The notes under the pieces were generated by a model. It saw only the letters and a program-made list of their open reading frames with translations, did not search any database and was not told the DNA's origin. A program made the position numbers and the translations under genes. From an uncultured Rubrobacteraceae bacterium (lineage in GTDB: Bacteria; Actinomycetota; Rubrobacteria; Rubrobacterales; Rubrobacteraceae), in NCBI GenBank assembly GCA_902805975.1, contig CADCUT010000109.1:1-35872 (forward strand): a DNA stretch of 35,872 nt, written 5' to 3'. Each line of letters starts with the position of its first letter. Position 1 is the stretch's first letter. Shown here one piece after another: positions 4,496 through 34,863 of this stretch.

Positions 4496-4674
4496 GATTT
4501 CAGGTCACAGGTTTCAGGTTTCAGCTAGATATGCGGTGCGCAGCGGCGGCCCGTGGTCGCATATTGTGGTTTGAGGGAGAGTGTTTTAATCCCCCGATTA
4601 CGTTGTTCCGGAGAACGCCGGGCCGGTCGAAAGAAAATCTTCCCTGGTACCTGAAGCCTGATGCCTGAAACCTA
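4496..4674. repeat. Heptamer-bounded intergenic element A
   Basis: The left arm is GATTTCA, GGTCACA, GGTTTCA, GGTTTCA (4496-4523). The right arm is CCTGGTA, CCTGAAG, CCTGATG, CCTGAAA (4643-4670), the same heptamer in inverse orientation. Just inside the left arm is ATGCGGTGCGCAGCGG (4531-4546), which shares the ATGCGGTGCGC/GTGCGGTGCGC core with elements B and C. The right arm runs into the stop codon of the 82-aa gene. No reading frame inside is convincing. The 345-base gap from 4327 to 4671 otherwise holds only the dnaE promoter. Confidence 0.65.
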
Positions 4675-4920
4675 CTCTTCTTCGTCCTTCCACAGAAACC
4701 AGTTTATGGCGATCTGGGCGCTCAGGACGGCTAAGAGGAGTGCGAAGACGCCGTTCTGGAGGTCGTGGCTGTAGGCGGTGTAGACGACGAGGGCTGAGGA
4801 GATTGCGAGGGCTGCGACGACGAAGAGGAGGGTGACGCCGAGCACGGCGACACGGAAGGCCCGTCGGACGAGGCCCTCGCGGCGGGGTTCATTGTGCGGC
4901 AGGTCAGCGCCGCGGGCCAC
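4672..4920 (-). CDS. Small two-helix membrane protein, unknown
   Basis: I do not recognise this 82-aa protein. After a basic, polar N-terminus (about 22 residues) come two hydrophobic segments, about 24-48 (VAVLGVTLLFVVAALAIS) and about 56-76, and a charged KDEEE tail. This predicts a two-helix inner-membrane protein. The GTG start at 4920 lies 7 bases after the upstream FmdB-type gene, so the two are probably cotranscribed. The stop codon is directly followed by heptamer tract units on the minus strand (the right arm of element A). Confidence 0.65.
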   Translation of the reverse strand: MARGADLPHNEPRREGLVRRAFRVAVLGVTLLFVVAALAISSALVVYTAYSHDLQNGVFALLLAVLSAQIAINWFLWKDEEE

Positions 4921-4927
4921 GAGGGGA

Positions 4928-5245
4928 TCAGTCCTTTGATCCGGAGGATTTGGACGATGCCGCCGGCTTCTCCGCGGACTTCTCCGCGGACTTCTCCGCG
5001 GACTTCTTGTCCTTGGTGTCCGACTTGGAGTCGCCGTTGGTGGATGCGGCGGGCTCCTTGGGGCCCTTCTTGGAGCTGTAGTCCGTGGAGTAGAAGCCAG
5101 AGCCCTTAAAGGAGATGCCGACCGGCTGGAGGACCTTGCGGACCGGGGCCCCGCACTCGATGCAGGTGGTCAGGGGGTCGTCCGACATCTTCTGCATCAC
5201 GTCAAAGACGTGATCGTTCTCGCACTTGTACTCGTAGATCGGCAT
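4928..5245 (-). CDS. FmdB-family zinc-ribbon protein with Lys/Ser/Glu-rich tail
   Basis: This 105-aa protein starts MPIYEYKCENDHVFDV and continues with SDDPLTTCIECGAPVRKV, the small FmdB/CxxC-type regulatory zinc ribbon. The first knuckle is C8-x3-H12 rather than CxxC; the second is CIEC (28-31). The family motif KGSGFYSTDY follows. The last 40 residues are low-complexity and charged, with three SAEK units encoded by a 12-base tandem repeat. Function in this family is poorly known; transcription regulation was proposed for FmdB itself. The ATG start is shared with all family members. Confidence 0.8.
   Translation of the reverse strand: MPIYEYKCENDHVFDVMQKMSDDPLTTCIECGAPVRKVLQPVGISFKGSGFYSTDYSSKKGPKEPAASTNGDSKSDTKDKKSAEKSAEKSAEKPAASSKSSGSKD
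4967..5005. repeat. 12-bp tandem repeat inside the FmdB-type gene
   Basis: Plus-strand unit GACTTCTCCGCG is repeated about three times in register with the reading frame, giving SAEK-SAEK-SAEK. A slippage-prone coding microsatellite in the disordered tail. Confidence 0.7.
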
Positions 5246-5310
5246 CCGGCCTCCATCTGACAGCTCGCAACGGAGGGAATTATACCGCCCGGGGGATGTT
5301 TGGTCCGCCG

Positions 5311-5589
5311 CTACTCGGGACGGCGGCGCGGGTCGAGCTCGCCGGAGTCGAAGTCCTGCCGCATGTTCTCGTGGGCCGTTTCGAGGAGCTTGGGGTTCTG
5401 CAGGATCTCCTCTACCTCTGCCGGCGAGGCGTTGCGGCGCACGTACTCCTCTTGCGTCACCTCACGCAGGGTGGCACCCTCCCCGATCCTGTGCACGATG
5501 TACCCGATGACCCTCTCCTCCCGCGCGGAGCGCTTGTTCGTGCTGAACAACCGCTGCCAGAAGGACCGTTTCTCCTGCTCCTCAGCCAT
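5311..5589 (-). CDS. Conserved-looking small protein, unknown
   Basis: A 92-aa soluble, charged protein (starts MAEEQEKRSFWQRLF) with no motif I recognise and no membrane segment. The central part, EERVIGYIVHRIGEGATLREVTQEEYVRR, looks like a compact helical domain followed by a conserved-looking EVEEILQNPKLLE helix. It has its own strong promoter at 5640-5669 with a leader of about 45 bases. The ATG start at 5589 has an AGGAG-type ribosome site just upstream (gaGAGGAGtacggtc). Coding pressure is supported by GC-rich third positions and a promoter, not by homology. Confidence 0.65.
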   Translation of the reverse strand: MAEEQEKRSFWQRLFSTNKRSAREERVIGYIVHRIGEGATLREVTQEEYVRRNASPAEVEEILQNPKLLETAHENMRQDFDSGELDPRRRPE

Positions 5590-5639
5590 GACCGTACTCC
5601 TCTCGCCCCGTCTCAGGGACAGCGCCCGCCACGGCCTTC

Positions 5640-5669
5640 AGTATAGCGAGTCGGGGAGCCCGGTATCAA
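5640..5669 (-). promoter_or_regulatory. Strong predicted promoter of the 92-aa gene
   Basis: The minus strand reads -35 TTGATA (5669-5664), an 18-base spacer and -10 TATACT (5645-5640). This is among the closest matches to the sigma-70-type consensus in the window. The predicted transcript starts near 5633. Confidence 0.65.
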
Positions 5670-5908
5670 AAACCGCGCCCCCCGACGCCAAATCTCCGGG
5701 TCATGCCCCGTCGACCGGTGAACCCGACGCCGGGGCGGCTCCCAGGGAGGTGAACGTCCGCGCGAGCCCGGGCCACTTCGTCGCACGGTGCCTCGCCCAA
5801 GCGCAGGCAGGAGGCACCTGCCAGAGAGGGTAGCGGGAAGATCCGAGCCCCCTCCCCGCGCATCAGCCCTTATACGTGCTGGCAGCAGAGGTTCTCAGAA
5901 CGCGGACA
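5670..5908. other. Gene-free stretch with two mutually exclusive hairpins
   Basis: No convincing gene lies between the promoter at 5640 and the GNAT stop. A perfect 8-bp inverted repeat (GGTGCCTC 5787-5794, GAGGCACC 5811-5818) overlaps a second one (GGCAGG 5806-5811, CCTGCC 5817-5822). Both cannot form at once. The element lies downstream of the asd-GNAT transcript and upstream of the 5640 promoter, so it may simply be a terminator region. Confidence 0.4.
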
Positions 5909-6394
5909 TCAAGCGCCGGAGGCGAGATCTTCCAGGGCCGTCCCTGAGATCCGGTACACCGTCCAGTCGTCCATCGGGACGGCGCCGAGCTTTCTGTAGA
6001 ACCCTATCGACGGCTCGTTCCAGTCGAGCACCCACCATTCGAGCCGTCCGCAGTCGCGCTCCCTGGCGAGCCGCGCCAGGCGGACCAGCAGTTTTCTCCC
6101 GATCCCGGCGCCCCGGAACTCGGGCTTCACGTAGAGGTCTTCAAGGTAGATTCCGGGCTTGCCGAGGAACGTCGAGAAGTTGTGGAAGAAAAGCGCGAAG
6201 CCGGCCGGGGCACCGTTATGCTCGGCGATCAGGACCTCCGCGTACCGGCGCCCTCCGAAAAGGTTCTCCCGCAACCCCTCCTCGGTAGCCACGACCTCGT
6301 CGGAGAGCCTCTCGTACTCGGCGAGCTCGCGGACGAGCGAGAGGATGAGCGGGACGTCTTCTCCGGTAGCTTCCCGGATCCGGGTTCCGGCCAC
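5909..6394 (-). CDS. GNAT acetyltransferase, SAT-like (diamine/thialysine acetyltransferase type)
   Basis: A 161-aa GNAT-fold protein. The acetyl-CoA loop is in PEFRGAGIGRKLL, preceded by GKPGIYLEDLYV. The C-terminal RLEWWVLDWNEPSIGFYRKLGA segment and DDWTVYRI closely match the spermidine/spermine N1-acetyltransferase (SSAT)-like bacterial family. Members acetylate polyamines or thialysine, but the true substrate here is unknown. The GTG start at 6394 lies only 6 bases after asd, so it is the last gene of the metX operon. Linkage to the aspartate pathway may be only positional. Confidence 0.85.
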   Translation of the reverse strand: MAGTRIREATGEDVPLILSLVRELAEYERLSDEVVATEEGLRENLFGGRRYAEVLIAEHNGAPAGFALFFHNFSTFLGKPGIYLEDLYVKPEFRGAGIGRKLLVRLARLARERDCGRLEWWVLDWNEPSIGFYRKLGAVPMDDWTVYRISGTALEDLASGA

Positions 6395-6400
6395 CCTGGG

Positions 6401-7366
6401 CTAGACTCGGACGCCGACGAGCTCTTCGGCGATCTGAACGGCGTTTGTGGCAGCGCCCTTGAGCAGGTTGTCCGAGACGCACCAGTACTGCACGACGTTG
6501 CCCTCGACCCGCACCCGGCCAACGAACGTGTTCGGGTCGCCGGCGGCCTCGAGCGGCGTCGGGAAGTCGTCGGCATCGCCGGAGAAGGTTACGCCGGGGG
6601 CGGAGGAGAACGCTTCGAGGACCTCTTCGAGGCTGGTCTCCCGCGCGAGTTCGACGTAGACGCTCTCGGAGTGGCCCGTGTGGACGGGGATGCGGACCGC
6701 TGTCGCGTGGACCTCGAGGTCTGGGAGGCCCATGATCTTGCGCGTCTCCAATCGCATCTTGGTCTCTTCTGTCGTGTACCCGTCGTCACCCACACCCCCG
6801 ATGAGCGGGATGGCGTTGCGGTCTATGGGCTTCGGGTAGACGCCCTCGCGCCCGTCTTCGAGCGCCTCCACCCCGCCGCGGCCCGAGCCGGAGACCGCCT
6901 GGTAGGTCGAGACGACCACCTTCTCGAGGCCGAACTCGCGGGCGAGCGGGGCGAGCGTGACGACCATCTGGATGGTGGAGCAGTTGGCGTTGGCGATCAG
7001 GCCCTCGTGGTCCTTGGCCGCCTGGGCGTTGACCTCGGGCACGACGAGCGGCACGTCCGGGTCGAGCCTGAAGTCGCTGCCGTTGTCTATGACGACTGCG
7101 CCCCTGGAGATCGCCTCCCCCGCGAGCTGGACCGCGGCGCCCTTCTCGCCCTCGGTGCCGGCGAAGAAGGCGATATCAACGCCCTCGAACGCCTCGGGCT
7201 CCGCCACCCCGACCTCGAAAGGCTCGCCGGCGAGCGTCGCGGTCCTCGCGCTGCGGGCGAGTATTCGAAGGTCTTTGAGGGGGAAGTTCCGGCGTCCTAG
7301 CTCGGCGACGATCCGGTCCCCGACCAGCCCCGCTCCGACCACTGCTACCGTGTATCCTTCACCCAT
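6401..7366 (-). CDS. asd: Aspartate-semialdehyde dehydrogenase
   Basis: Reduces aspartyl phosphate to aspartate semialdehyde with NADPH, the branch point to homoserine and lysine. The ATG at 7366 (321 aa) has GGGAGG six bases upstream; a longer frame reaching 7495 is an artefact. The N-terminal Rossmann motif reads GAGLVG rather than the usual GATGxVG. The active-site cysteine is C129 in NANCST. The QAVSGSGRGG substrate loop and a late HTGHSE segment with the acid/base histidine are present. It lies 22 bases after hom, within the metX-to-asd operon. Confidence 0.95.
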   Translation of the reverse strand: MGEGYTVAVVGAGLVGDRIVAELGRRNFPLKDLRILARSARTATLAGEPFEVGVAEPEAFEGVDIAFFAGTEGEKGAAVQLAGEAISRGAVVIDNGSDFRLDPDVPLVVPEVNAQAAKDHEGLIANANCSTIQMVVTLAPLAREFGLEKVVVSTYQAVSGSGRGGVEALEDGREGVYPKPIDRNAIPLIGGVGDDGYTTEETKMRLETRKIMGLPDLEVHATAVRIPVHTGHSESVYVELARETSLEEVLEAFSSAPGVTFSGDADDFPTPLEAAGDPNTFVGRVRVEGNVVQYWCVSDNLLKGAATNAVQIAEELVGVRV

Positions 7367-7388
7367 CTTAGGCCTCCCTTTCTGTCTA

Positions 7389-8458: not shown

Positions 8459-8462
<4 letters not shown>
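7389..8462 (-). CDS. hom: Homoserine dehydrogenase
   Basis: Makes homoserine from aspartate semialdehyde. This 357-aa protein has an NAD(P) motif GLGHVG (10-15), the catalytic EATVGAGMPII segment, and the family signature YAEPDPRDDLSGLDVARK. There is no C-terminal ACT domain, so threonine feedback through that domain is not expected. The TTG start overlaps the stop of the aspartate kinase gene by four bases (TTGA), implying translational coupling. It sits between the kinase and asd in the SAM-riboswitch operon, which points to supply of homoserine for methionine. Confidence 0.95.
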
Positions 8463-11010
<2,548 letters not shown>

Positions 11011-11020
<10 letters not shown>

Positions 11021-12147
11021 GTTATGAACGGTTTTACCGCCTCCGCGAGTTCGGTCCAGTCCTTGAGGAAGGCGTCGTGGCCGCTTAGGGTGTCTATCTC
11101 GGCGTAGCGGGCTCTGGCTCCGGCGTCGCTGGCCCTCTCCGCCGTGTCCCTGACCTCGCTCGCGGGGAAGAGCCAGTCGCTGGTGATGCCGACGAAGAGG
11201 AGGTCGGCCGAGACGCGGGAGAGGGCCTCCCCCACCGACTCGTAGCCGCCCGCGACGTCGTACAGGTCCATGGCGCGGCTCAGGTAGAGGTAGGAGTTGG
11301 CGTCAAAGCGGCCCGTAAGGTCGCGGCCCTGGTAGTGGAGGTAGCTCTCTATCTCGAGCCGGCCGCCGAACTCCGGGTAGAGCGCGGGGCGTCCGGCGGG
11401 CCTGCGGCCGAAGCGTTCCCACTGGCCGGGGGCGCTCTGGTAGGTCATCATGCCGGCCATGCGGGCGATGGCGAGGCCCTCTTCCGGGGTTCTTCCCGTG
11501 CCGTAGTACGAGCCGTCCTGCCAGTTCGGGTCCGCCATGATGGCGCGGCGCCCGATCTCGCTCATCCCAACGCCCTGCGGGCCCAAAGCACCCGTCGCCG
11601 CGACGGGCGCGGCCTTCTCGACAAAGTCCGGGAACTCGACGGCCCACTCGAGCGCCTGCTGGCCCCCGATGGAGCCGCCGATGACGAGCGCCAGGCGGCG
11701 CACGCCGAGGTCGTCGAGCAGACGCCTCTGGGCGCGGACCATGTCCCGGATCGTCACGATCGGGAAGCTCGCGCCGTAGGGCTCACCCGTCTGGGGGTCT
11801 ACAGAGGCCGGGCCCGTGCTGCCCGCGCAGCCGCCGAGTACGTTCGAGCAGACGACAAAGTATTCTTCGGTGTCTATGGGCCGCCCCGGTCCGACCATCG
11901 GGTCCCACCAGCCGCCGCGCCGGTGGCCGGCGGAGGGTCCCCCCGCCGCGTGCGAGTCGCCCGTCAGGGCGTGGGTCAGCAGGACGACGTTATCCGCACG
12001 CCCGTTCAGGACGCCCCACGTCTCGTAGGCGAGGGTCACGTCGGCGAGGTTTCCGCCAAGCTCGGGCTCGAACAAGCCGATGGCGTGGTGGTGGATGCCG
12101 GGAAGGGCCGGGGCCTGGCTAGCGCCGGCCCCCGGGTCTAGTGTCAT
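11011..12147 (-). CDS. metX: Homoserine O-acetyltransferase
   Basis: Activates homoserine with acetyl-CoA; pairs with metY. This 378-aa alpha/beta hydrolase has HALTGDSHAAG, the WWDPMVGPG loop and the nucleophile S159 in GGSIGGQQALEW (the family usually reads GGSMGGMQ). Late Asp and His appear in ITSDWLFP and LSGHDAFLKD. The ATG at 12147 lies 17 bases after the best Shine-Dalgarno (GGAGG at 12169-12165), unusually far, so a CTG six bases upstream is a possible alternative start. It is first in the operon, directly under the SAM-I riboswitch. The final codons merge with heptamer tract H4. Confidence 0.95.
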
Positions 12148-12266: not shown

Positions 12267-12387
12267 CTCCCCACATCTTCCGGGACGGTAATGGCCGTCC
12301 CGCTGGACTTGGCACCTCGCGAAGAGAAGTCTCCGCCGGTTGCCGCGGTTTCTCGGGGCCAGTTCCCTCCACCGCTCTCGATGCGAG
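12267..12387 (-). ncRNA. SAM-I (S-box) riboswitch
   Basis: The minus strand shows the conserved S-box blocks in order: AGCGGTGGAGGGAACTGGCC, GAGAAACCGCGGCAACC, AGGTGCCAAGTCC, a hairpin GGGACGG...CCGTCCC, then GAAGATGTG. The ends pair as P1 (CGCATC near 12386 with GATGTG near 12272). S-boxes bind S-adenosylmethionine and switch off methionine genes. Here it precedes metX-metY-kinase-hom-asd, so the whole path from aspartate to homocysteine is expected to fall when SAM is high. Confidence 0.93.
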
Positions 12388-18413: not shown

Positions 18414-19700
18414 CTACCGGGGGGTCTGGGACGGCTCGATACGTTCCTTGCCGACGTACGGGATCAGGGCTTCGGGAAGCTTCACGGAGCCGTCCTCTTG
18501 CTGGTAGATCTCGAGCAGGGCTATAAGGGCGCGGCTCATGGCGAGGGCGGTGCCGTTGAGGGTATGGAGGAGTCGGGGACGTCCACCCGGCTCCGCCCTG
18601 CGGTAGCGGATGCGGAGGCGGCGGGCCTGGTAGTCGGTGGTGTTGGAGGTGCTCGTGACCTCGCCGAAGTCGCCGCGGCCGGGCATCCAGGCCTCGAGGT
18701 CGTACTTGCGGTAGGCCGGACCCCCGAGGTCGCCGGTGCAGATGTCCACGACGCGGTAAGGCAGGCCGAGGCCCTGGAAGATCCTCTCTTCTATCTCGAC
18801 CATCTCCTCGTGGACGGACTCCGAATCCTCCGGGGTGGTGAAGGCGAACATCTCCACCTTGGTGAACTGGTGGACCCGGTAGAGGCCGCGGCTCGCCCGG
18901 CCGTGGGAGCCGGCTTCGGTGCGGAAGCAGTGCGAGAGGCCCGCGTAGCGGAGCGGGAGGCGCCCCTCTTCCACTATCTCGTCCGTGAGCTGGCCGGCGA
19001 GCGGTATCTCTGCGGTGGCGACCAGGGAGAGGTCGTCATCTTCGACCGAGTAGATCTGGGTCTCGGGCCCGCGGGGGATAAAGCCCGTGCCCACCAGCGC
19101 CTCGTCGCGGGCGAGGTCGGGTGTGATCGTCGGCTCGTAGCCGTAGCCGGCGAGCAGGTCCAGCGCGTACCGAATTAGTCCTAGCTCGAGGAGGACGGCG
19201 TCTCCCCGGAGAAAGTAGAACTTGCTGCCCGTGGTCTTGGCGCCCGCCTCGAAGTCTATGATGCCAAGGGACTCGCCGAGCTCGACGTGGTCTCTAGGTT
19301 CAAAGGAGAACTCGGGAATCTCGCCGGAGCGCCGGATCTCGACGTTCTCTGAGTCATCCCTTCCGATGGGCGAGTCGGGGTGGGTCATGTTCGGGATCTT
19401 GAGCTGCTCGTCGCGCAGGCGCCCCTCGACCTCGTGGAGCTCGGTCTCTTTAGCGGGGATCTCCTGCTTCATCTCCCTGGACCCCGCTATCAGCCTCTCG
19501 CGCGCCTGCGCGTCGCGCTCCTGGCCGATGCTCTTGGCCATCCGGTTCTGCTCCTGTTTGAGCTCGTTGAGCTGCTGGATGAGCGCCGAGCGCCGGTCGG
19601 CGAGCTCGACGACGAGCCCGACGTCCGCTTCGACACCCCGGTTCCGGCAGTTCTCCTGGACGGCCTCCACGTTCTCGCGGATGAATTTAAGATCGAGCAC
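18414..19700 (-). CDS. serS: Seryl-tRNA synthetase
   Basis: Charges tRNA-Ser (and tRNA-Sec where present). The 428-aa protein has the long N-terminal coiled-coil arm (residues about 30-100, LIQQLNELKQEQNRMAKSIGQ), then the class II core with LSHCFRTEAGSHGRASRGLYRVHQFTKVEMF (motif 2), DLEAWMPGRGDFGEVTSTSNTTDYQARRL, and motif 3 near HTLNGTALAMSRALIALLE. The start is GTG at 19700 with GGGAG eight bases upstream. It lies 77 bases downstream of the methyltransferase gene, with heptamer tract H5 between them. Confidence 0.97.
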   Translation of the reverse strand: MLDLKFIRENVEAVQENCRNRGVEADVGLVVELADRRSALIQQLNELKQEQNRMAKSIGQERDAQARERLIAGSREMKQEIPAKETELHEVEGRLRDEQLKIPNMTHPDSPIGRDDSENVEIRRSGEIPEFSFEPRDHVELGESLGIIDFEAGAKTTGSKFYFLRGDAVLLELGLIRYALDLLAGYGYEPTITPDLARDEALVGTGFIPRGPETQIYSVEDDDLSLVATAEIPLAGQLTDEIVEEGRLPLRYAGLSHCFRTEAGSHGRASRGLYRVHQFTKVEMFAFTTPEDSESVHEEMVEIEERIFQGLGLPYRVVDICTGDLGGPAYRKYDLEAWMPGRGDFGEVTSTSNTTDYQARRLRIRYRRAEPGGRPRLLHTLNGTALAMSRALIALLEIYQQEDGSVKLPEALIPYVGKERIEPSQTPR

Positions 19701-19723: not shown

Positions 19724-19751
19724 GGCTTCAGGCTTCAGGTTTCAGGCATCA
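19724..19751. repeat. Heptamer tract H5 between methyltransferase and serS
   Basis: Plus-strand units GGCTTCA, GGCTTCA, GGTTTCA, GGCATCA. It starts 24 bases before serS on the minus strand. Confidence 0.7.
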
Positions 19752-19777
19752 GCAAGGAGCTGACGGCGAGGGTTATC

Positions 19778-20293
19778 TTAGCCTGCAAGCTCTTTGAGTG
19801 CGCGGTTCTCGGTCCTGATGCGGACGTAGAGGAAGAGGGCGTTGAGCAGCGAGAAGACCAGCGCCGTGACCCAGGCGCCGAAGATGAGGGGCAGCGTTAG
19901 CACCTCGACGGCGACGACGATGTAGTTGGGGTGCGGGAAGAGGCGGTACGGGCCGCGCAGGACCAGCTTCCGGCCCGGCACGAAGAGCACCCGCACGTTC
20001 CAGTTCTCGCCGAGCGCGTAGATGGCCCAGTAACGCAGGGGCTGCGCCAGCAAGAACAATCCGAGCGGCACCGGCCACCAGGAGGGTGGATCCGGCCCCC
20101 GCAACAACCCCTCCGCGAGCGTCGAGGCGAGCCAGAGCGCGTGGATCGCGACCATCGCCGGGTAGTGCCCCCTCCCCCGCTCCACCGCCCCCTTCGCCCG
20201 GAGCCGCCGCTCGTTCCGCCGCGAATACCGCAGCTCCAGAAGCCGTTGCACGGCCACGAGCCCGACGGCCAGCAGAAGCAGTCCCGCCCTCAG
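19778..20293 (-). CDS. Isoprenylcysteine carboxyl methyltransferase-family protein
   Basis: A membrane methyltransferase of the ICMT family. The C-terminal part has the SAM-binding signature GPYRLFPHPNYIVVAVEVLTLPLIFG and RIRTENRAL; earlier there are hydrophobic segments. Next to type III PKS genes such enzymes (BpsB/YpbQ, SrsB) O-methylate alkylpyrones or resorcinolic lipids. The start is uncertain: a GTG at 20257 would cut the first membrane helix. I propose CTG at 20293, because GAGGGG sits exactly five bases upstream and the extra residues (RAGLLLLAVGLVAVQ) complete that helix. No ATG/GTG/TTG exists in frame between there and the PKS stop. Confidence 0.8.
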   Translation of the reverse strand: MRAGLLLLAVGLVAVQRLLELRYSRRNERRLRAKGAVERGRGHYPAMVAIHALWLASTLAEGLLRGPDPPSWWPVPLGLFLLAQPLRYWAIYALGENWNVRVLFVPGRKLVLRGPYRLFPHPNYIVVAVEVLTLPLIFGAWVTALVFSLLNALFLYVRIRTENRALKELAG

Positions 20294-24550: not shown

Positions 24551-25405
24551 GTGCAGAACGTTTCTGCTGACCCCCTGGAGCAGCGGCTCCGGGAACTCGA
24601 AGAGATCGTCGCCCCCTACGAGAGCGCGCTGGTCGCCTTCTCCGGCGGCGTCGACTCCTCGCTCGCGCTCGCGGTGGCCGCCCGGGCGCTGCCCGCGGGG
24701 AGGGTTCTCGCCGTCACCTCCAACAACGAGACCTACCTCCCCTCTGAGCTGGATCTCGCCCGCGACTTCGCCGCCTCGCTCGGGGTGGAGCACCTCGTGG
24801 TCAACACGAGGGAGCTGGACGACCCGAACTACGCCTCCAACCCCACCAACCGCTGCTACTTCTGCAAGAGCACCCTCTACTCGGACCTGGCGAAGCTGGC
24901 CGAAGAGAAGGGCTACGGGTGCGTCGTGGACGGGGCGAACAAGGACGACGAGGGGGACTACAGGCCGGGCCGCAAGGCGGCCAAGGAGCTGGGCGTCGTC
25001 TCGCCGCTCTCGGTGGCCGGGGTCGGCAAGGCCGAGGTCAGGGAGCTCGCCAAGCGTCTCGGGTTGCCGAGTTGGGACAAGCCGGCGCTCGCCTGCCTCA
25101 GCAGCCGGTTCCCGTACGGGCAGGAGATCACACCGGAGAAGCTCGCCCAGGTCGCGCGCGCCGAGGAGTTCATGCGCCGGGAGGGCTTCCGGCAGGTCCG
25201 CGTCAGGCATCATGGCGAGATCGCCCGCCTCGAAGTCGGCCCCGAGGAGCTCGAACGCGCCTTCGCCGAGCGCGAGAAGATCACGGCCGAGCTCCTCGAC
25301 GCGGGCTTCCTCTACGTGACCCTCGACCTCGCCGGCTACAAGTCCGGCAGCCTGAACGCGGCCCTCAAGAAGAAGGGCAGAAAGTCCCTGCCCGTCCTCT
25401 CCTGA
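24551..25405 (+). CDS. larE: LarE-type ATP-dependent sulfur transferase, three-cysteine form
   Basis: LarE inserts sulfur into the nickel-pincer nucleotide cofactor of lactate racemase-type enzymes. The 284-aa protein has the PP-loop SGGVDSS (31-37), then CYFCK (C102, C105) and the late C182 in ALACLSSRFPYG. The single-cysteine class sacrifices that last cysteine; proteins with all three are known to use an iron-sulfur cluster and turn over catalytically. I chose GTG 24551 because GGAGGA lies nine bases upstream; the GTG at 24542 touches it. No larB, larC or larA is in the window, so the target is unknown. Confidence 0.88.
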   Translation: MQNVSADPLEQRLRELEEIVAPYESALVAFSGGVDSSLALAVAARALPAGRVLAVTSNNETYLPSELDLARDFAASLGVEHLVVNTRELDDPNYASNPTNRCYFCKSTLYSDLAKLAEEKGYGCVVDGANKDDEGDYRPGRKAAKELGVVSPLSVAGVGKAEVRELAKRLGLPSWDKPALACLSSRFPYGQEITPEKLAQVARAEEFMRREGFRQVRVRHHGEIARLEVGPEELERAFAEREKITAELLDAGFLYVTLDLAGYKSGSLNAALKKKGRKSLPVLS

Positions 25406-25986
25406 TGCCCGATCTCCCCGAAGGCACGCTCCTCGTCGTCACCCTGATCGTGATGTTCGTAGGTCTCGTGGGCAGCGTGCTCCCGGCGCTTCCTGGGGTC
25501 ACCCTGATCTTTATCTCGGCCCTCGTCTACGCCTTCTCCACCGGCTTCGAATTCGTGGGCGGCTGGGTCATCGCCCTCCTCGGGCTCTTCGCAGCCCTCG
25601 CCCTCGTCGCGGACTTTGTCGGCACGAGCTACGGCGCCCGGCGCTTCGGCGCGAGCAACTGGGGAACCGCCGGCGGCGCCATCGGCGGCATCGTCGGCGC
25701 CCTGGCCGGCCTCCTCTTCCTCGGCATCGGCTCCCTATTTGGCCTGATCCTGGGCTCCGTCGCCGGCGTCTTTCTCGGCGAGTACCTAAGGCGCCGCCGC
25801 CACGGAGCCCCAGCCCAGGGACCCGAAGGACCGAGGGTCCGCCCCGCCCGCGCCGAGGACGACGACTGGAGGCGCACGGGACGCGCGGCCGGCGGCGTCT
25901 TTGTCGGCTACCTAATCGGCGCCGCCGCCCAAGGCGTTCTCGGCCTGCTGAGCGTGATCATCTTCGTGCTAGCGCTGATCTACTAG
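25405..25986 (+). CDS. DUF456-family membrane protein
   Basis: A 193-aa glycine-rich membrane protein: hydrophobic segments at about 8-30, 32-47, 50-72, and two long Gly/Ala-rich helices around 85-125, then a charged loop (RRRRHGAPAQGPEGPR) and two last helices (GGVFVGYLIGAAAQGVLGLLS). VGSVLPALPGVTLIF near the start is the DUF456 signature. The function is unknown. Its ATG shares one base with the larE stop (TGATG). It ends four bases before heptamer element B. Confidence 0.8.
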   Translation: MPDLPEGTLLVVTLIVMFVGLVGSVLPALPGVTLIFISALVYAFSTGFEFVGGWVIALLGLFAALALVADFVGTSYGARRFGASNWGTAGGAIGGIVGALAGLLFLGIGSLFGLILGSVAGVFLGEYLRRRRHGAPAQGPEGPRVRPARAEDDDWRRTGRAAGGVFVGYLIGAAAQGVLGLLSVIIFVLALIY

Positions 25987-25989
25987 ATA

Positions 25990-26141
25990 GGTTTGAGGCT
26001 CTAGGTTCCAGGCATAAGGGGTGCGGTGCGCGACCGGAGCCCGGCGTCGCCGCCGCCAAGATTAGCCAGAGATCGCCGCATGTTCATAGTGTCTTCGCTC
26101 TACAAAGCCTCAAACCTAGAGCCTAGAGCCTCAAACCTACT
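25990..26141. repeat. Heptamer-bounded element B between convergent genes
   Basis: Left units GGTTTGA, GGCTCTA, GGTTCCA, GGCATAA (25990-26017); right units CCTCAAA, CCTAGAG, CCTAGAG, CCTCAAA (26108-26135). GGTTTGAGGCTCTAGG (25990-26005) and CCTAGAGCCTCAAACC (26122-26137) are a perfect 16-bp inverted pair. Inside lie the core GGGGTGCGGTGCGCG (26018-26032) and CTCTACAA just before the right arm. The right arm reaches the PAC2 stop codon. It could serve as a two-way terminator, but the loop is over 100 bases. Confidence 0.75.
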
Positions 26142-27018
26142 CCTCGTCGTTGCGCTCGCGGAGGAACCCTTCGAGTTCCTGGGCGAGGTCGTCGCCGGTT
26201 GGGAGGTTGCGTTCCCCGCCCTCTACCTGCGAGTCGAAGCGCTCTTCTAGCATCTGGACGTAGGAGGAGAGGTCGGAGTCCTGGGAGACGGCGACGGAGA
26301 CCTGCTCCTGGTAGCTGGTCGCGGTCTCCTCGAGGTCCGAGGTGTCGACGTCGACCTTGAGCAGGACGGAGAGGTTCTGGAGTAGGGCCAGCGCCGCGGG
26401 TGCCGAGGGCACGGCGGGCAGGTAGTGGGGAACGGAGGCCCAGAAACTCACCGAGGGCAGGCCCGCTTCGGCGCAGACGCGGTGCAGGACGCCGGTGATG
26501 CCGGTCGGCCCCTCGTAGCGCGAGGCCGTGAGGCTCAGGTTCTCAACGAGGACGGGGTCTTGGGAGTTGGCGGAGACGGAGACCGGGCGCGAGTGGGGCA
26601 CGTCCGCGAGCAGGGCGCCCATCGTCACGACCATCTCGGCACCCAGATCCTTCGCCGTCTCAGCCACGGCGTCGCAGAAGGAGCGCCAGCGGAAGTTCGG
26701 CTCCGGGCCGGAGAGCAACACGGCGCCGCGCCCGCGCAGGGCCTCGACGACCGGGGCCGTCGCGCTCAGGGTGTTCTCTGGCCACTCTATCGTGCGGGTC
26801 ACGCCGTCTGAGAGCGTGATCTGGGGCCGCGTGGCCTGGAAGTCGAAGAACTCCTCGGCGTCGAAGTGGCCGAACCGTTGCGCGTCCCACGCGTCGTTCA
26901 ACGTGCCCACCGCGAGGCTCGAAGCCTCCGCCGCATCGTTCCATCCCGTAAAGCCGGCGATCAAGACGGGCCTCTCGAGCTTCGGCATCCGATCTAATTT
27001 GACGTATTTATTAGCCAT
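26137..27018 (-). CDS. PAC2-family protein
   Basis: A 293-aa member of the PAC2 (proteasome assembly chaperone 2-like) family, common in actinobacteria. The family opening RPVLIAGFTGWNDAAEASSLAV (17-38), DFQATRPQITL, LLSGPEPNFRW and the GALLADVPHSRP and GLPSVSFWASVPHYL segments are all visible; a Glu-rich helical C-terminus follows. The molecular role is unproven; a proteasome link is plausible in actinobacteria. The ATG at 27018 has no Shine-Dalgarno, so the mRNA may be leaderless or the second Met (residue 11) may be used. Its stop touches element B. Confidence 0.85.
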   Translation of the reverse strand: MANKYVKLDRMPKLERPVLIAGFTGWNDAAEASSLAVGTLNDAWDAQRFGHFDAEEFFDFQATRPQITLSDGVTRTIEWPENTLSATAPVVEALRGRGAVLLSGPEPNFRWRSFCDAVAETAKDLGAEMVVTMGALLADVPHSRPVSVSANSQDPVLVENLSLTASRYEGPTGITGVLHRVCAEAGLPSVSFWASVPHYLPAVPSAPAALALLQNLSVLLKVDVDTSDLEETATSYQEQVSVAVSQDSDLSSYVQMLEERFDSQVEGGERNLPTGDDLAQELEGFLRERNDEE

Positions 27019-28774: not shown

Positions 28775-28806
28775 TTGACACTCGGGGCTCGCGAGGCCCG
28801 TAGACT
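28775..28806 (+). promoter_or_regulatory. Possible promoter of the EEP-family gene
   Basis: A perfect -35 TTGACA (28775-28780) and a TAGACT (28801-28806) are separated by 20 bases, longer than ideal. A CTCGCGAG palindrome lies in the spacer. Confidence 0.4.
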
Positions 28807-28829
28807 GGGGCTTGCGACCCGGGGCCAGC

Positions 28830-28863
28830 GTTGTTCCCGGCCCGTGGTTGTTCCCGGCCCGTG
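28830..28863. repeat. Perfect 17-bp tandem duplication in a 5' leader
   Basis: GTTGTTCCCGGCCCGTG occurs twice in immediate succession (28830-28846, 28847-28863), just upstream of the EEP-family ribosome site. Confidence 0.9.
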
Positions 28864-28884
28864 TCCGGAATGGAGGGAGATCCC

Positions 28885-29877
28885 GTGGTCGATTTCGTGG
28901 TGATGACCTGGAACGTCGAGAACCTCTTCGCGCCCGCGGACGGGGCGCCGGAGGAGGAGAGGGAGGGATACGGGCGCAAGCTCGGGCTTTTGGCTTCCGT
29001 GATCGGCGATGCGGGCCCGGACGTTGTGGCCCTCCAGGAGATCGGCGGCGAAGACGCCCTCGTGGACCTCGGCGAGGCGCTTGGCGGGAGCTACCCGCAC
29101 CGGGCCGTATCCGCATTCCCCGACGGACGCGGCATCCGGGTCGCGTTCCTCTCCAGGCACGTTATCGAGGAGACCGAGGACCTCGCGGACTTCCCGCCGG
29201 GTCCGGCCCTGAACGTCAGCGACCTGACCGCGGAAGGCGGCGCCGAGCCCGTGACGCGTATGGGCCGCGGCGCCCTGCGGGCCAGGGTGCGCAAGGAGGA
29301 CCTGGCGGTGGACCTCGTGACCGTCCATTTCAAGAGCAAGCTGCTCTCCTTCCCGAGGCCGTGGGGCACGAGCTTCGCGCCCAGGGACGAGGACGAGCGG
29401 GCCCAGGCCACGGGCGTGGCCCTGCACCGCCGCGCCGCCGAGGCGGTGACGGTTCGCGTGTGGGCGAACGAGCTCCTCGGGGCGGGCGACGTTCCCCTGG
29501 TCCTTCTAGGGGACCTCAACGACGTGCCAGAGGCGCAGACCTCCCTGCTGCTAAACGGGCCGCCCGGCTCCCAGATCGGCTCGGGCGGCTTCGGGCGGCC
29601 AGACAAGGGAGACGCCTCCCGGCTCTTCAACCTGGCGCCCCTGATCCCCGAGGGTCGACGCTACTCACGGGTCCACGAAGGACGCCCCGAATTGCTGGAC
29701 CAGATCCTGGCCTCCGCGGGGCTGGTGCCCCAGGGTGGGGATGGGCTGTCCCCGTCGGCCGACGCCCTCGTCGACTTCAGGGACAGGCTACCCTCCGTAA
29801 GGGACGACCCCGCGGAGCGGGAGGGCGCCGAGGCCCCGGACCACGCGCCGGTCGTGGCGACGTTCGCCACCCGGTAG
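28885..29877 (+). CDS. Endonuclease/exonuclease/phosphatase (EEP) family protein
   Basis: A 330-aa metal-dependent phosphodiesterase-fold protein. TWNVENLF near the start, ALQEIGGEDALVDL (metal Glu), VTVHFKSKLLSF, LLGDLNDVPEAQTS (the catalytic Asp/Asn) and DHAPVVATF (catalytic His) are in the normal EEP order. There is no signal peptide, so it acts in the cytoplasm or by unknown export. The substrate (nucleic acid, phosphoinositide or other) is not predictable. The GTG at 28885 has GGAGGGAG five bases upstream; ATG 28870 lies before the Shine-Dalgarno and is unlikely. It ends 37 bases from the convergent LCP gene. Confidence 0.85.
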   Translation: MVDFVVMTWNVENLFAPADGAPEEEREGYGRKLGLLASVIGDAGPDVVALQEIGGEDALVDLGEALGGSYPHRAVSAFPDGRGIRVAFLSRHVIEETEDLADFPPGPALNVSDLTAEGGAEPVTRMGRGALRARVRKEDLAVDLVTVHFKSKLLSFPRPWGTSFAPRDEDERAQATGVALHRRAAEAVTVRVWANELLGAGDVPLVLLGDLNDVPEAQTSLLLNGPPGSQIGSGGFGRPDKGDASRLFNLAPLIPEGRRYSRVHEGRPELLDQILASAGLVPQGGDGLSPSADALVDFRDRLPSVRDDPAEREGAEAPDHAPVVATFATR

Positions 29878-29914
29878 CCGCCTGGCTGCGCGGAGCGTCC
29901 GCCGGGGCGGTCCG

Positions 29915-31057: not shown

Positions 31058-31239
31058 GCCTTCTCTCTTTGCTGCGCCTTCTGGCGGCCGCGAGTATCCT
31101 CCGCGTCCATCACGGGTGGACGCGTCTACGATGGCGCTACATTCCCCCCGGCGGGAACACTAAACGATCGGGCCGTCGCGGGAGTCTACAACAACGCGGG
31201 CCAATCGACCCGAAGCCCCCGGATTCCGGCAGGCGGAGT
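31058..31239 (-). other. Region upstream of the LCP gene
   Basis: No gene is seen. It holds an 8-bp hairpin CGCGTCCA (31102-31109)/TGGACGCG (31117-31124) about 45 bases before the LCP start. I find no convincing promoter. Confidence 0.35.
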
Positions 31240-31560: not shown

Positions 31561-31587
31561 GGGACAACCTTTCGAAGGGTTGGGCGA

Positions 31588-32547
31588 TCATTCGGCCCTG
31601 CGGGCGAAGATCAGGTGCGAGCTACGACCGGCCACGGGCTCGAACTCGATGGCGCCGTAGCCGGCTTCGAGTAGCCACCGCTCGTACTCCCCGGCCGTGT
31701 AGGTGCCGCCGCGGGGCGTAAGAACCAGCATGTTCGCCGCGAAGAGCGCCGCGTCCTCGCCGAGCCCGCGCACGAACTCCCGCACCACGAGCAGACCGCC
31801 CGGCGCGAGAGACCGTCGCATCCTCTCGAACAGCGCCCGGTTCTCCCCGGGTCCGTACATGTGAGAGGTATTGCCGAAGTAGACGGCGTCGAAGGGGCCG
31901 CCCGGCAGTCCCTCGTTCATATCCCCCGCCTCCGTCCCGATCCCGGCACCAGATAAAGTCTCTCTCATAAGGTCTATGACCTCGGGACGGTCGAAGACCG
32001 TTACACGGGCCCCGCCCGCGGCGAAAGCCTCGGCGTTGGTGCCGGGCCCGCCCCCGACGTCGAGGATGCGCGCCCCTTCTGCCAGCCGCGCGAGAACCGC
32101 GTCGGCGACCGCCGCGGCGCCCGGCCTCGCCCCGCGGCGCATCGCCGCGATAAACGTCTCCGTCCCCCCGAAGCCGGGGGCGGTCCGGTCCTCGACGGGC
32201 CTTCCGGTGCGCAGGATCTCCGGTATCCGGCCCCAGCTGACGATCAGTTCGAACCGATGCACCACGCTCTGGCCCACGAAGTCGGGATGGTGCCGGTCGA
32301 GCAAAGGCCCCCGGTGCTCTTCCCGCAGCCGGAACTCTTCCCCCTCCTCTTCCAGAATACCGAGCTCGGCGAGCGCGGAGAGGACGACGTAGACGGCCCT
32401 CGCGTCCATCCCGAGTTCTCTCGCCACCAAATCAGACGACCGCGCCCCGCCGGCGACGGCCCCGATCAGGCCCTCCCTTACCGCCGCGCCGAGGAGTATG
32501 GCCCACCGCCAGTCGAGCTCGACGTAGTCCACCCGGTCCCCGCTCAA
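31588..32547 (-). CDS. Class I SAM-dependent O-methyltransferase (winged-helix dimerisation type)
   Basis: A 319-aa small-molecule methyltransferase. The N-terminal half is a winged-helix dimerisation domain (AILLGAAVREGLIGAV, ELGMDARAVYVVLSALAELGIL). The catalytic domain has motif I ILDVGGGPGTNAEAFA, the acidic VTVFDRPEV, DAVYFGNTSHMY and LAPGGLLVVREFV. Such enzymes methylate hydroxyl groups of polyketides, carotenoids or peptides. The TTG start overlaps the asparaginase stop by four bases (TTGA), so translation is coupled. The next gene is the small leader-like peptide, making a peptide substrate worth considering. Confidence 0.87.
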   Translation of the reverse strand: MSGDRVDYVELDWRWAILLGAAVREGLIGAVAGGARSSDLVARELGMDARAVYVVLSALAELGILEEEGEEFRLREEHRGPLLDRHHPDFVGQSVVHRFELIVSWGRIPEILRTGRPVEDRTAPGFGGTETFIAAMRRGARPGAAAVADAVLARLAEGARILDVGGGPGTNAEAFAAGGARVTVFDRPEVIDLMRETLSGAGIGTEAGDMNEGLPGGPFDAVYFGNTSHMYGPGENRALFERMRRSLAPGGLLVVREFVRGLGEDAALFAANMLVLTPRGGTYTAGEYERWLLEAGYGAIEFEPVAGRSSHLIFARRAE

Positions 32548-33530
32548 ACGAGCGGCCCGATCTCGCCCACCGCCACGCCGTGCAGATCCTCTTTGAGCTG
32601 GGCCTCATCCCCCGATACCGCCACGCCCCGCCGCCCGAGCGCGGCGACGGCCGCCGGCCGCACGGCCCGCCCGCCGCCGTCGGAGATCTTGACCGCGAGC
32701 CCCCACCCCTCGCCGCTTCCGGCGCCGAAGACGCCCTCGGCCCCGCTCTTGCACACGAGGTCCGTCGTTCGCATGACCTCCGTATCGAACCGTCCCGTCC
32801 CCGCGACCATGAACGGGTATCCCCGCATCGCGCGCCCGAGCCTCTCCGCCGCCCCGGCCACCTCGTCGGAGAGCCCCCCGCCGGTCGCGAACCGGGCGAA
32901 GCCCGTCGCGAGGCTCCTGAGGGGAAGCGCGAAGGCGGGGACGCCGCAGTCATCGCCGGCCAACAGCACCTCGTCCTCGCGAAGGCCGCAGACCTCCGCG
33001 ACGAGGCCCAGTAGCCGGCGCTGGAGGGGATGTTCGGGGTTGCGGTAGCCGCCGGTGTCGAGGCCCTCGTGGACGCAGACGGCGAGCATCCCGGCGTGCT
33101 TGCCGGAGCAGTTGCCGTGAATGGGCCGGGGGTCCTCCCCGTCGCGGGCGAGCTTCGCCGCGGCGGGAGCGTACATCGGGGGATGGGCGCCGCTCTGGAG
33201 GTCGTCCTCCGATAGGCCCGCCTTCTCCAGCAGGGATCTGACGGCGGCCAGGTGCTGTTCTTCGGCGTTGTGGGAGGCGCAGGCGACGGCCAGCTCCCCA
33301 TCCGTGAGGCCGAAGGCGTCGGCGGCGCCGGAGAGGACGAGGGGGAGTGCCTGGAACGGTTTTGCCGAGGAGCGGGCAAAGACGTAGGCGTCCGGGTCGC
33401 CCGTCGCGTCGAGGACGTTGCCGGCGGGGTCGCAGAAGATGAAGCGGCCCCGGTGGACGCTCTCGACGACGGCGCCGCGGCGCACGGCGACCAGCGGGGC
33501 GTCCTCGGGGAGGCCCGCGGGCCTATCCAT
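32544..33530 (-). CDS. Asparaginase II-family protein
   Basis: A 328-aa protein of the asparaginase II (PF06089-type) family: RRGAVVESVHRGRFIFCDPAGNV, FARSSAKPFQALPLV, ELAVACASHNAEEQH, IHGNCSGKHAGMLA, AGDDCGVPAFALPL and VAGTGRFDTEVMR are all family landmarks. The family is predicted to hydrolyse asparagine; few members have been tested. The ATG at 33530 overlaps the preceding gene by eight bases. Its place between an amidohydrolase and a methyltransferase is unusual for simple asparagine catabolism. Confidence 0.9.
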   Translation of the reverse strand: MDRPAGLPEDAPLVAVRRGAVVESVHRGRFIFCDPAGNVLDATGDPDAYVFARSSAKPFQALPLVLSGAADAFGLTDGELAVACASHNAEEQHLAAVRSLLEKAGLSEDDLQSGAHPPMYAPAAAKLARDGEDPRPIHGNCSGKHAGMLAVCVHEGLDTGGYRNPEHPLQRRLLGLVAEVCGLREDEVLLAGDDCGVPAFALPLRSLATGFARFATGGGLSDEVAGAAERLGRAMRGYPFMVAGTGRFDTEVMRTTDLVCKSGAEGVFGAGSGEGWGLAVKISDGGGRAVRPAAVAALGRRGVAVSGDEAQLKEDLHGVAVGEIGPLV

Positions 33531-33831
33531 CGCCGAGGCGGATCAGGTACAGCGCCATCAGGTCGTGGGCCACCCTCATGCGGGCCATCGCGGCCGGCGG
33601 GTCGCCCTCGGCCAGGTAGGCGCGTCCCTCCCCGACCAGTTCCCGGACCTGGGTCAGGATCTCATCGTCCATGTTCGCCGGGCTGTCGCCGCGAAGGCTC
33701 CCCACGACCATGCCGAGGATCACGTCCACGCGCGGGCTGTTCGTCCACATCGAGATAATCGCGATATCCATGTAGCTGTGGACCCTGAGCAGGTGCGCCG
33801 TCCGGGTAGGTAGGTCCGCCCTCTCCTTCAC
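33523..33831 (-). CDS. Small helical protein, unknown
   Basis: A 102-aa soluble protein (VKERADLPTRTAHLLRVH at the start). The C-terminal half, EILTQVRELVGEGRAYLAEGDPPAAMARMRVAHDLMALYLI, reads as a pair of amphipathic helices like a TPR-type hairpin. I recognise no family. Coding is supported by the four-base GTGA overlap with the amidohydrolase stop, an eight-base overlap with the asparaginase start, and codon bias. It probably partners one of its operon neighbours. Confidence 0.65.
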   Translation of the reverse strand: MKERADLPTRTAHLLRVHSYMDIAIISMWTNSPRVDVILGMVVGSLRGDSPANMDDEILTQVRELVGEGRAYLAEGDPPAAMARMRVAHDLMALYLIRLGDG

Positions 33832-34607
33832 GAGAACCACCTCCGGATGTTCCCAGAGAGGATGCCGGGCAGCGCCTCGTCCGGCACGCCGGCGGCGTCC
33901 GCGGCGGCCAGGGCCGAGTGCAGCGTCGAGGGGAAGTCCCCGTAGGGTATGTCCGACCCGTAGCTTATGCGCGAGGGATCGAGGGTGGAGAAGAGCACGT
34001 ACAGGTCCTTCGCCCGCACCACCGAGGTCTCGAAGAGCACGTTCGGATGGTCCTCGAACCGGCGGACGGCTTCGAGCACCTCGATCATCGCGGCGTGGCC
34101 GAGGATGAGGCGCAGGTTCGGGTGGCGCTCTACGGTCGGCAGCAGGGGCTCCACTATGCGCTCCATGGCGAAGCCGGCGTGGATCAGGACCGGCAGGTCG
34201 GCCTCCGCCGCCATCGCGAAGAGCCGGGTTACGCGCGGGTCGTCGAGCTCGAAATTCTGAGAGACGGGGTGCAGCTTGAGCCCCCTGAAGCCCCGATCCA
34301 GGCACCTGGAGAACTCCCTGTCGTAGCCCAGATGCGGGTTGAGCCTGAAGAACGGCACAAAGAAGCCGGGGTGCTCCTCGTGGGCGTTCCAGACGACCTC
34401 GTTCGGCCCGGAGTAGTCGTCGCGGGCGTTCGGGTCGTTGAGGGGGAAGACGATGCTCCGGCTGATATCGGCGGCCTCCATCCTCTCGCGCATCCCCTCG
34501 GCGGTCATCGTCCGCCCGTCCACGTCGGCCCCGATGTGGGCGTGGGCGTCGAAAACCTCGACGCCGTCCGGAATCTTGTTCTGCACCCACTCCCAGACGG
34601 CGGCCAT
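33828..34607 (-). CDS. Amidohydrolase (TIM-barrel, amidohydrolase-2 type)
   Basis: A 259-aa metal-dependent hydrolase. Metal ligands are visible in order: DAHAHIG (HxH, about 20-25), GLKLHPVSQNF (Lys/His), VLIHAGF, LILGHAAM and the final Asp in YGSDIPYGD. Members hydrolyse or decarboxylate small organic substrates; the substrate here is unknown. The barrel is short. The ATG at 34607 is chosen from alignment with the HxH motif; its ribosome site is weak, and the frame stays open to 34739. It heads the operon ending in the leader-like peptide. Confidence 0.83.
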   Translation of the reverse strand: MAAVWEWVQNKIPDGVEVFDAHAHIGADVDGRTMTAEGMRERMEAADISRSIVFPLNDPNARDDYSGPNEVVWNAHEEHPGFFVPFFRLNPHLGYDREFSRCLDRGFRGLKLHPVSQNFELDDPRVTRLFAMAAEADLPVLIHAGFAMERIVEPLLPTVERHPNLRLILGHAAMIEVLEAVRRFEDHPNVLFETSVVRAKDLYVLFSTLDPSRISYGSDIPYGDFPSTLHSALAAADAAGVPDEALPGILSGNIRRWFS

Positions 34608-34675
34608 GGTCCCGCTCGTCAAGGCTTCGACACCCGTCTTGCGCTCCGTCTCAGTCGCCAAGGCTACCGCCGATC

Positions 34676-34687
34676 TAGCCAGAGATC
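34676..34687. repeat. 12-mer shared with element B
   Basis: TAGCCAGAGATC here is identical to 26063-26074 inside element B, with CCGCC just upstream in both places. It lies about 45 bases left of element C. Confidence 0.55.
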
Positions 34688-34733
34688 CAATAGATGGGAC
34701 AACCGTGCAATGGTAGCAGGGGGAAAGATGGTA

Positions 34734-34863
34734 GGCCACAGGCTTCAGGTCGCCCCCGACGCCGAGGCTTTCAGGTTTCAGGTATCAGGGGTGCGGTGCG
34801 CGGCTTGGAATCCGGCATCGTCACTCTACAACCCCTCAAAACCTGGAACTTCAGAACCTCAAT
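34734..34863. repeat. Heptamer-bounded element C
   Basis: Left units GGCCACA, GGCTTCA, then after an 18-base break GGCTTTCA, GGTTTCA, GGTATCA (to 34787). Core GGGGTGCGGTGCGCG (34788-34802) is identical to that of element B, and CTCTACAA (34824-34831) again precedes the right units (CCTCAAA, CCTGGAA, CCTCAAT, 34834-34863). It lies between the start of the amidohydrolase operon and the 3' end of the next minus-strand gene. Confidence 0.7.

Follow-up and report, generated by a model that had tools for sequence, protein, structure and literature searches.

Contig C109 of an uncultured soil Rubrobacteraceae metagenome-assembled genome (MAG), referred to at its full length of 35,872 nt as the window, contains three intergenic elements, A, B and C, each made of two inverted arms of degenerate 7-nt repeats around an inter-arm part. 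It is close to certain that these elements belong to a real dispersed repeat family. They occur in many copies, with constant polarity in the counted pairs and at the 3' ends of genes; one unit was found at two unrelated sites, elements are present at a site in one species and absent in another, and occupants of the same site are in many cases not each other's nearest relatives. The best reading, held with modest confidence, is that they are non-autonomous repeats, similar to repetitive extragenic palindromic (REP) sequences and miniature inverted-repeat transposable elements (MITEs), multiplying at gene 3' ends. Each unit comprises a left arm of heptamers in AGG phase, an apical part (in one subfamily the GTGCGGTGCGC core of approximately 111 nt) and a complementary right arm in CCT phase.

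Copy number, anatomy and spread

The MAG holding the window, hereafter the source genome, comprises 3.53 Mb in 238 contigs and is 82% complete. Four successive units (AGGN4AGGN4AGGN4AGG) were matched at 294 places in it, against one for the reversed pattern, which served as control for array and core patterns, and AGGGGTGCGGTGCGC at up to one mismatch gave 13 matches against none in the control. A core model, R1, was built from 15 sequences, B and C among them; 150 candidates were scored per genome, so that counts are lower bounds, and E-values are rough owing to a short calibration. The approximately 111-nt core (AGGGGTGCGGTGCGCGG...CTCTACAACCCCTCAAAACCT) was matched at least 52 times in the source genome at E ≤ 1e-3, seven of these matches being model-building sequences. 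At E ≤ 0.1, matches numbered at least 66 in the source genome, at least 35 in G004, at least 29 in G006 and at least 13 in G003.

A core-selected sample of 70 elements was drawn from 72 matches, two weak opposite-strand matches being left out (33 from the source genome, 20 from G004, 10 from G003 and 7 from G006, orthologous sites included). Counting in-phase heptamers up to 36 nt beyond the core match, 57/70 elements have two or more on one side at least and 32/70 on both; without the 12 model-building elements the figures are 47/58 and 24/58, and the background for heptamers on one side is 34/976 (AGG) and 24/976 (CCT). These numbers speak against coincidence, which the first-pass annotation had tied to fewer than about ten copies or to cores without arms. 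A bare core 10-mer was rejected as a family marker, having 17 matches (arms present at 8 of them) against 19 in the reversed control. Within the window alone, the 14-mer at up to two mismatches is unremarkable, with three matches, one of them outside the elements, against 1.1 expected. Sister genomes supplied a further 12 near-core places for inspection, of which eight are heptamer-armed and four coding or unrelated.

The sequences ascribed to the three elements in the first-pass annotation were all located: TGCGGTGCGC is at 4532 (A), 26022 (B) and 34792 (C), all on the + strand, CTCTACAA is at 26098 (B) and 34824 (C), and Tandem Repeats Finder (TRF), used to locate heptamer arrays in the window, reported them at 4498-4524 and 4650-4673 (A), 26115-26131 (B) and 34769-34789 (C). 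Genes were called with a codon-usage caller trained on the window. The left arm of B (AGG heptamers, 25989..26019, +) lies 2 nt past the TAG stop of the + strand gene 25405-25986, the match to R1, including heptamers at both ends, spans 26010..26124 (+, 87.7 bits, B being a model-building sequence), and the right arm (CCT heptamers, 26106..26139, +) ends within the stop of gene 26137-27018 (- strand). In C the left arm (34733..34789, +) is broken by a small nested hairpin, AGGTCGCCCCCGACGCCGAGGCTTTCAGG (34747-34775); the match to R1 (34780..34850, +, 67.8 bits, likewise a model-building sequence) is by alignment a shortened copy with about 40 internal nt missing, and is followed by a right arm of CCT heptamers (34832..34867, +). 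Element A has a left arm of degenerate TTTCAGG/GTCACAG heptamers (4498..4524, +), at a site with orthologues in sister genomes, and a right arm of CCTGAAG-type heptamers (4650..4673, +) that reaches into the stop codon of gene 4672-4920 (- strand). Its inter-arm part (4525..4649) carries ATGCGGTGCGC (4531-4541) where B and C have GGGGTGCGGTGCGCG and CTCTACAA in common, and gave no core-model match in the window at E ≤ 1e-3. The earlier view of A, B and C as one core family thus stands for B and C, while A is heptamer-armed but unmatched; GCGGTGCGC of A is part of a separate element, whose site upstream of dnaE is kept in sister species. All three fold as RNA more strongly than dinucleotide shuffles (z = -6.0 for B, -3.3 for A and -2.5 for C).

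Many arms (34747-34775 in the window; loci L084, L226, L227, L231 and others) carry among their heptamers a small nested hairpin of type TCGCCTCC-TTCG-GGAGGC, which looks like a second copied module.

Arm units consist of AGG plus four bases, mostly AGGY..., with G-runs of two, and both arm length and unit sequence vary among elements. A second, array-selected sample of 48 clusters was built from 100 places listed among the 294 in the source genome; 40 of these loci were inspected and eight left out. Inter-arm parts (37, cut automatically from loci of the source genome) measure 24-238 nt; six have a length of precisely 40 nt, and the long core is present in several of about 90-117 nt. The core aligns at 59-77% mean column identity; the alignment held 66 of the 70 core-selected elements, four shorter than 95 nt being left out, and other core alignments kept 43 of the first 46 elements or, in later rounds, 41. 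All ten mixed-strand clusters among the 48 have the AGG arm first and the CCT arm second. Over 200 kb of G006, a TCAGC or AGG arm likewise comes first in 12/12 paired gaps.

The array census covered the source genome and 60 relatives (eight sister species of the genus, 27 others of the family and 24 others of the phylum). A search with the gene next to element B identified, as named relatives, Rubrobacter sp. and uncultured Rubrobacteraceae MAGs together with one distant Acidimicrobiales MAG. The four-unit AGG array has 9 to 114 matches in the eight sister species and is patchy in the 27 other genomes of the family (99 in G028, 36 in G015, 12 in G014, and 0-2 in 20 of the 27). The 24 genomes from elsewhere in the phylum differ little or not at all from the control; the largest excess, in G049, is 5 against 0, and the units there are unrelated. 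Another family of heptamers, NNTCAGC, gave 394 matches to a three-unit pattern in the sister species G006, against none in the control and one in the source genome. At loci L129-L138 of G006, NNTCAGC/GCTGANN heptamers form hairpins beside gene 3' ends, some with nested GC hairpins. The core model found nothing in G002, G005, G008, G015 and G028 (150 candidates scored each), despite the heptamer arrays present there. Arms and core are therefore separable: the arms have the broader distribution, and the core marks a subfamily found chiefly in G000, G003, G004 and G006.

Related arrays were also present in environmental viral-type contigs, of which 80 were examined among at least 120 stretches with four-unit GCTGAWR arrays. 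A TCAGC partner lies upstream at 18/71 GCTGA arrays and downstream at none, and a CCT partner downstream at 4/27 AGG arrays and upstream at none; the fetched stretches range from 42 to 72% GC. The same polarity in these contigs makes it probable that the class is broad, and repeats of the GCTGAWR type are possibly very widespread.

Position relative to genes and turnover between species

In the core-selected sample, the core match lies within 46 nt of a gene 3' end in 79/86 distances and of a 5' end in 8/48. Gene contexts are ++ at 28 elements, +- at 23, -- at 12 and -+ at 4, with three at contig edges. The ratio of convergent to divergent contexts is 23:4, compared with 20:27 among 60-700-nt gaps over 200 kb of G006 (p=0.0005), and elements of the source genome alone give 14:3 (p=0.009). 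The 48 array-selected clusters are distributed as +- 10, -- 12, ++ 7 and -+ 3, with 13 overlapping called genes and three at edges. Over the unbiased stretch of G006, strict arm pairs occupy 4/20 convergent, 7/65 tandem and 1/27 divergent gaps; with one arm accepted, the figures become 9/20, 18/65 and 2/27 (p=0.004, convergent against divergent). TAG stops are in excess beside arrays in the source genome (28/39 against 60/117, p=0.027) and in G006 (15/19 against 83/188, p=0.007); this excess may simply reflect the TAGG/TAGC heptamers themselves and carries no claim.

Copying to a new position is indicated by L224 of the source genome and L264 of G003, which are 93% identical over 150 bp, starting and ending in arms. 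Comparison of the loci of about 1.9 kb gave no further match beyond this unit, and the two sites are therefore unrelated. The first-pass annotation had proposed a comparison with empty sites in sister strains, and a site without the element is seen at L224: G004, the relative with the most similar flanks (95% and 92% identical), lacks the element and has 43 nt where the source genome has about 214 nt. Other occupants of the site are a tandem 13-mer in G003, a TCAGC hairpin in G006 (z=-6.4) and another hairpin in G005 (z=-3.7); those of G004 (z=-0.2) and G003 (z=-1.0) fold no better than shuffles. At L451 of G003, a tandem GGCGTCCCGGCGA repeat fills a convergent gap that holds a heptamer element in the source genome.

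Turnover is also evident at shared sites. Twelve of the 20 sampled G004 elements share their site with an element of the source genome (flanks 85-96% identical, two with one flank only). At 11 such pairs the elements are on average 72% identical (50-90%), against 85% at neighbouring third codon positions and 61% for random element pairs. Among 17 same-site groups, from which L264/L224 was excluded because its flanks are unrelated, the occupants are reciprocal nearest relatives within the 70 elements in seven, one-way nearest relatives in one and neither in nine. Element C is missing in G003, where the gap is 99 nt against 227 nt and holds CCTGATGCC, and G006 has elements at three places where the gaps in the window are short (65, 6 and 84 nt). 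At the B site, stems with z<-2 occur in 5/12 genomes with gaps of at least 40 nt, two of them AGG-armed and three TCAGC-armed (G006, G005 and G014); the other seven have no such fold, and four more genomes have gaps below 40 nt. The dnaE site holds a TCAGC hairpin in G008 and a decayed hairpin in G002. One candidate transposase-linked copy, L240/L244/L247, was rejected as an ordinary orthologous locus with short arms.

Maintenance of the arms and competing explanations

The arms of an element match each other better than those of shuffled partners: in the core-selected sample, none of 20,000 permutations reached the observed score. Across 20 same-site pairs, which are not independent, one element occurring three times, 13 have a better Watson-Crick score for arms of one species than for arms combined from both (Wilcoxon p=0.0046). 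At L274/L239, for example, GGCATCAGGTTTC stands opposite GAAACCTGATGCC in one species and GGCGTCAGGTCTC opposite GAGACCTGACGCC in the other. For the site of element A in eight genomes, the corresponding figure is 275 of 40,320 permutations, in a set containing two sites that pair poorly with the rest, the TCAGC-type one of G008 and the decayed one of G002.

If the elements are non-autonomous repeats, template switching or slippage at the palindrome would copy one arm onto the other and so keep the arms matched; conversion between elements with common heptamers may be an alternative route. Elements would survive at 3' ends because insertion there leaves coding and promoter sequence intact, and once in place would supply a 3' hairpin to both convergent transcripts.

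Several results count against this explanation. In the array-selected sample (38 elements) the arms match weakly, with 481 and 901 among 20,000 permutations reaching the observed scores, and the duplex energy of the 20 same-site pairs is non-significant (p=0.076), as is the comparison of strict pairs in convergent and divergent gaps of G006 (p=0.15). In 87 kb of G003 there was no paired gap among 42. Only one unit has been caught at two unrelated sites, and since many sites are shared between the source genome and G004, movement is not frequent. A target-site duplication is unreadable because in G004 the place of the element is taken by 43 nt of different sequence, and the lack of C in G003 may represent loss, with CCTGATGCC as a remnant. 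Y1_Tnp (PF01797), the one transposase family searched, had no match in the source genome, in a search whose controls were positive in 5/14 genomes. Half-core models showed no widely separated core halves, such as an autonomous parent would have, among the 150 candidates scored in the same incomplete MAG. The miniature mobile element suggested by the first-pass annotation is partly supported by the 150-bp unit at two sites, the G004 site without it and the dispersed non-coding cores, and goes without a Y1 transposase, a readable duplication or an autonomous copy in these searches.

A rather unlikely alternative as the main reason for the structure, though the strongest rival, is that the elements are selected as bidirectional transcript ends, an RNA hairpin of the arms terminating or protecting both convergent mRNAs and selection on RNA keeping the arms paired. 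The tight 3'-end position, the convergent excess, the strong stems at A, B and C and the differing hairpin families at one site across species agree with it. So does a terminator scan limited to loops of 3-8 nt, by which U-tract terminators in the window are no commoner than in shuffles; the same scan gave no match at A, B and C. By eye, however, no T-run follows either arm of A, B or C. The core lies on the sense strand of tandem genes in 28 cases against 12 (p=0.017), a bias which is only suggestive, falling to 18:10 (p=0.18) once orthologues were removed by hand. Stable stems at the B site are confined to 5/12 genomes, and the folds of the G004 and G003 occupants of the L224 site do not surpass those of shuffles. 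A new promoter behind the elements was considered and rejected, since -10 motifs occur in 5/38 segments against 3.7 in shuffled sequence. A conserved RNA within the core was likewise rejected: RNAalifold gave -16.9 against -12.3 (sd 2.8) for column shuffles, with a shuffle-like covariation term (60 of the 70 cores, six badly aligned ones among the 66 in the alignment being left out). Rfam had no match at A-C.

Wobble pairs bear on the same question. According to the available text on Bacillus cereus terminators, G.U is the most frequent intermediate there (PMC5381666), and one-directional selection at the RNA level would be expected to enrich G.U. In tandem contexts, stem mismatches on the transcribed strand are G.U in 60 cases and A.C in 54 (p=0.64), and the array-selected sample gives 21:24, also without asymmetry. 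RNA-level selection as read from wobble asymmetry was therefore rejected, and the missing G.U excess is a hint, not proof, that the arms are kept matched by a DNA-level process. Of the terminator family offered by the first-pass annotation, the 3'-end position remains; the U-tract, a strand-specific wobble and, in several species, a stable hairpin at the B site do not. The elements may plausibly serve as bidirectional transcript ends.

A more speculative proposal, which we consider improbable, would make gene 3' ends in the genus fixed addresses for exchangeable hairpin cassettes. The heptamer arms would act as short homologous docking ends through which units and whole families (AGG or TCAGC) are swapped between sites, and arm-to-arm copying would occur by replication template switching, without a dedicated transposase.

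Conventional MITEs, with terminal inverted repeats read by a transposase encoded elsewhere or lost and with ordinary target-site duplications, also seem an improbable description. The inverted arms and the non-coding, dispersed nature of the elements fit, as do the L224/L264 unit ending in arms at two unrelated sites and the G004 site without the element (one clear case each). Nevertheless, arm length and unit sequence are variable, sister species have different dominant heptamer families, neither an autonomous parent nor a split core was seen in the source genome, and the 150-bp unit had no plasmid or phage match. We are more doubtful still that the elements are protein docking sites, located where supercoils collect between convergent genes and bound by gyrase, a nucleoid protein or an OB-fold protein that reads the 7-nt step. 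The fixed 7-nt AGG phase, constant arm polarity and convergent positions could be read in this way, and three sets of comparable sites in Geobacter were proposed, in the available text, to be recognised by integration host factor (IHF) or HU (PMC2700814). Against this, single-arm arrays exist and the dominant heptamer is not conserved between sisters, being of AGG type in the source genome and TCAGC type in G006. Pure slippage, by which neutral tandem heptamers expand locally and arms arise by chance inversion, would suit the degenerate units, variable lengths and single-arm arrays, and is possible for single arms, but is very improbable as a general account and is contradicted for the core subfamily by L224/L264, since homologous cores of about 111 nt at dozens of sites, constant polarity and one unit at two unrelated sites need copying.

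Relation to known repeats and other features of the window

REP elements in Escherichia coli lie at gene 3' ends, and in cyanobacteria complementary degenerate heptamers form both strands of hairpins in short tandemly repeated repetitive (STRR) sequences and in P6b of the tRNA-Leu intron, within the intron or as single arrays. REP sequences and bacterial interspersed mosaic elements (BIMEs) associated with REP-associated tyrosine transposases (RAYTs) are described, in the text available, as short palindromes headed by GTAG or GTGG, linked to a Y1 transposase and present in more than 100 copies per genome (PMC2817692). The Rubrobacter elements are similarly dispersed intergenic palindromes of high copy number; unlike REP and BIME, they are variable heptamer arrays without a fixed GTAG/GTGG head, and the source genome has no Y1_Tnp match.

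Closer parallels are found among heptamer arrays. For Xanthomonas, the accessible parts of Rehm et al. (2015, PMC4692102) report 186 and 183 degenerate arrays of GGGAATC heptamers, convergent pairs among them, which are mostly intergenic and lie on average 28 nt from the 5' neighbouring open reading frame (ORF) and 160 nt from the one downstream, with 16% between convergent and 7-8% between divergent ORFs. The Rubrobacter arrays are of similar kind in being multicopy and degenerate with a 7-nt unit (294 against 1), in their close convergent pairs and in their 3'-end proximity (79/86 against 8/48). Their units are not of the GGGNATC quadruplex type, whereas the Xanthomonas unit is G-rich and was studied as a quadruplex former. 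A shared core, co-variation of arms, a unit at an unrelated site and a swap of heptamer family are not mentioned for the Xanthomonas arrays in those parts of the paper.

Multicopy tandem-repeat 'global regulator binding sites', mostly in pairs, are described for Geobacter metallireducens in the text available (PMC2700814). Classes 1 (octanucleotide GTTGCTYN, 48 sequences) and 2 form opposite-strand pairs at variable distance, and class 3 has five heptanucleotides MTYCTGA (16 sequences); that text proposes IHF/HU sites and does not state a core or a 3'-end position. Beggiatoaceae carry 169 sets of intergenic TAACTGA heptamer arrays, which, unlike the Rubrobacter arms, are in the available text direct repeats (one indirect) situated mostly just upstream of start codons (PMC4679880).

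Paired arrays being known in Xanthomonas and Geobacter, the Rubrobacter elements vary a known kind, and the novelty that the first-pass annotation attached to the arm-core-arm design was overstated, as far as the consulted parts of PMC4692102 and PMC2700814 go. New here are the different unit, the dispersed core, the unit at unrelated sites and the replacement of one heptamer family by another at the same gene end; no description of these repeats was found in open-licence PubMed Central literature. Membership among REP elements, MITEs or terminators in each case fails or lacks a defining feature. The Xanthomonas and Geobacter arrays were noted separately, as possible quadruplexes or IHF/HU sites, and comparison of sister species adds a core, a unit at two unrelated sites and a site without it, arms matched within elements with no strand signature, and the exchange of heptamer families at one gene end. 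The elements offer a testable system for how palindromic bacterial repeats originate, keep their symmetry and become established at the 3' ends of genes.

Three single arms on the + strand, identified by TRF and gene calls, are further heptamer arrays of the window. A CCTGAAA arm (804..834) adjoins the dnaE stop codon (gene called at 835-4272 on the - strand), and a GGTTTCA arm (10989..11016) lies between two - strand genes and overlaps the stop of gene 11011-12147. A GGCTTCA arm (19724..19752) lies between genes 18414-19700 and 19778-20257, and its orthologous place in G006 has TCAGC-type heptamers. The only Rfam match in the window is an S-adenosylmethionine (SAM) riboswitch (RF00162, 82.5 bits) at 12270-12387 on the - strand, upstream of the - strand gene 11011-12147. 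A perfect 2 x 17-bp tandem, GTTGTTCCCGGCCCGTG, occupies 28830-28863, immediately before the called start of gene 28870-29877 (+ strand).

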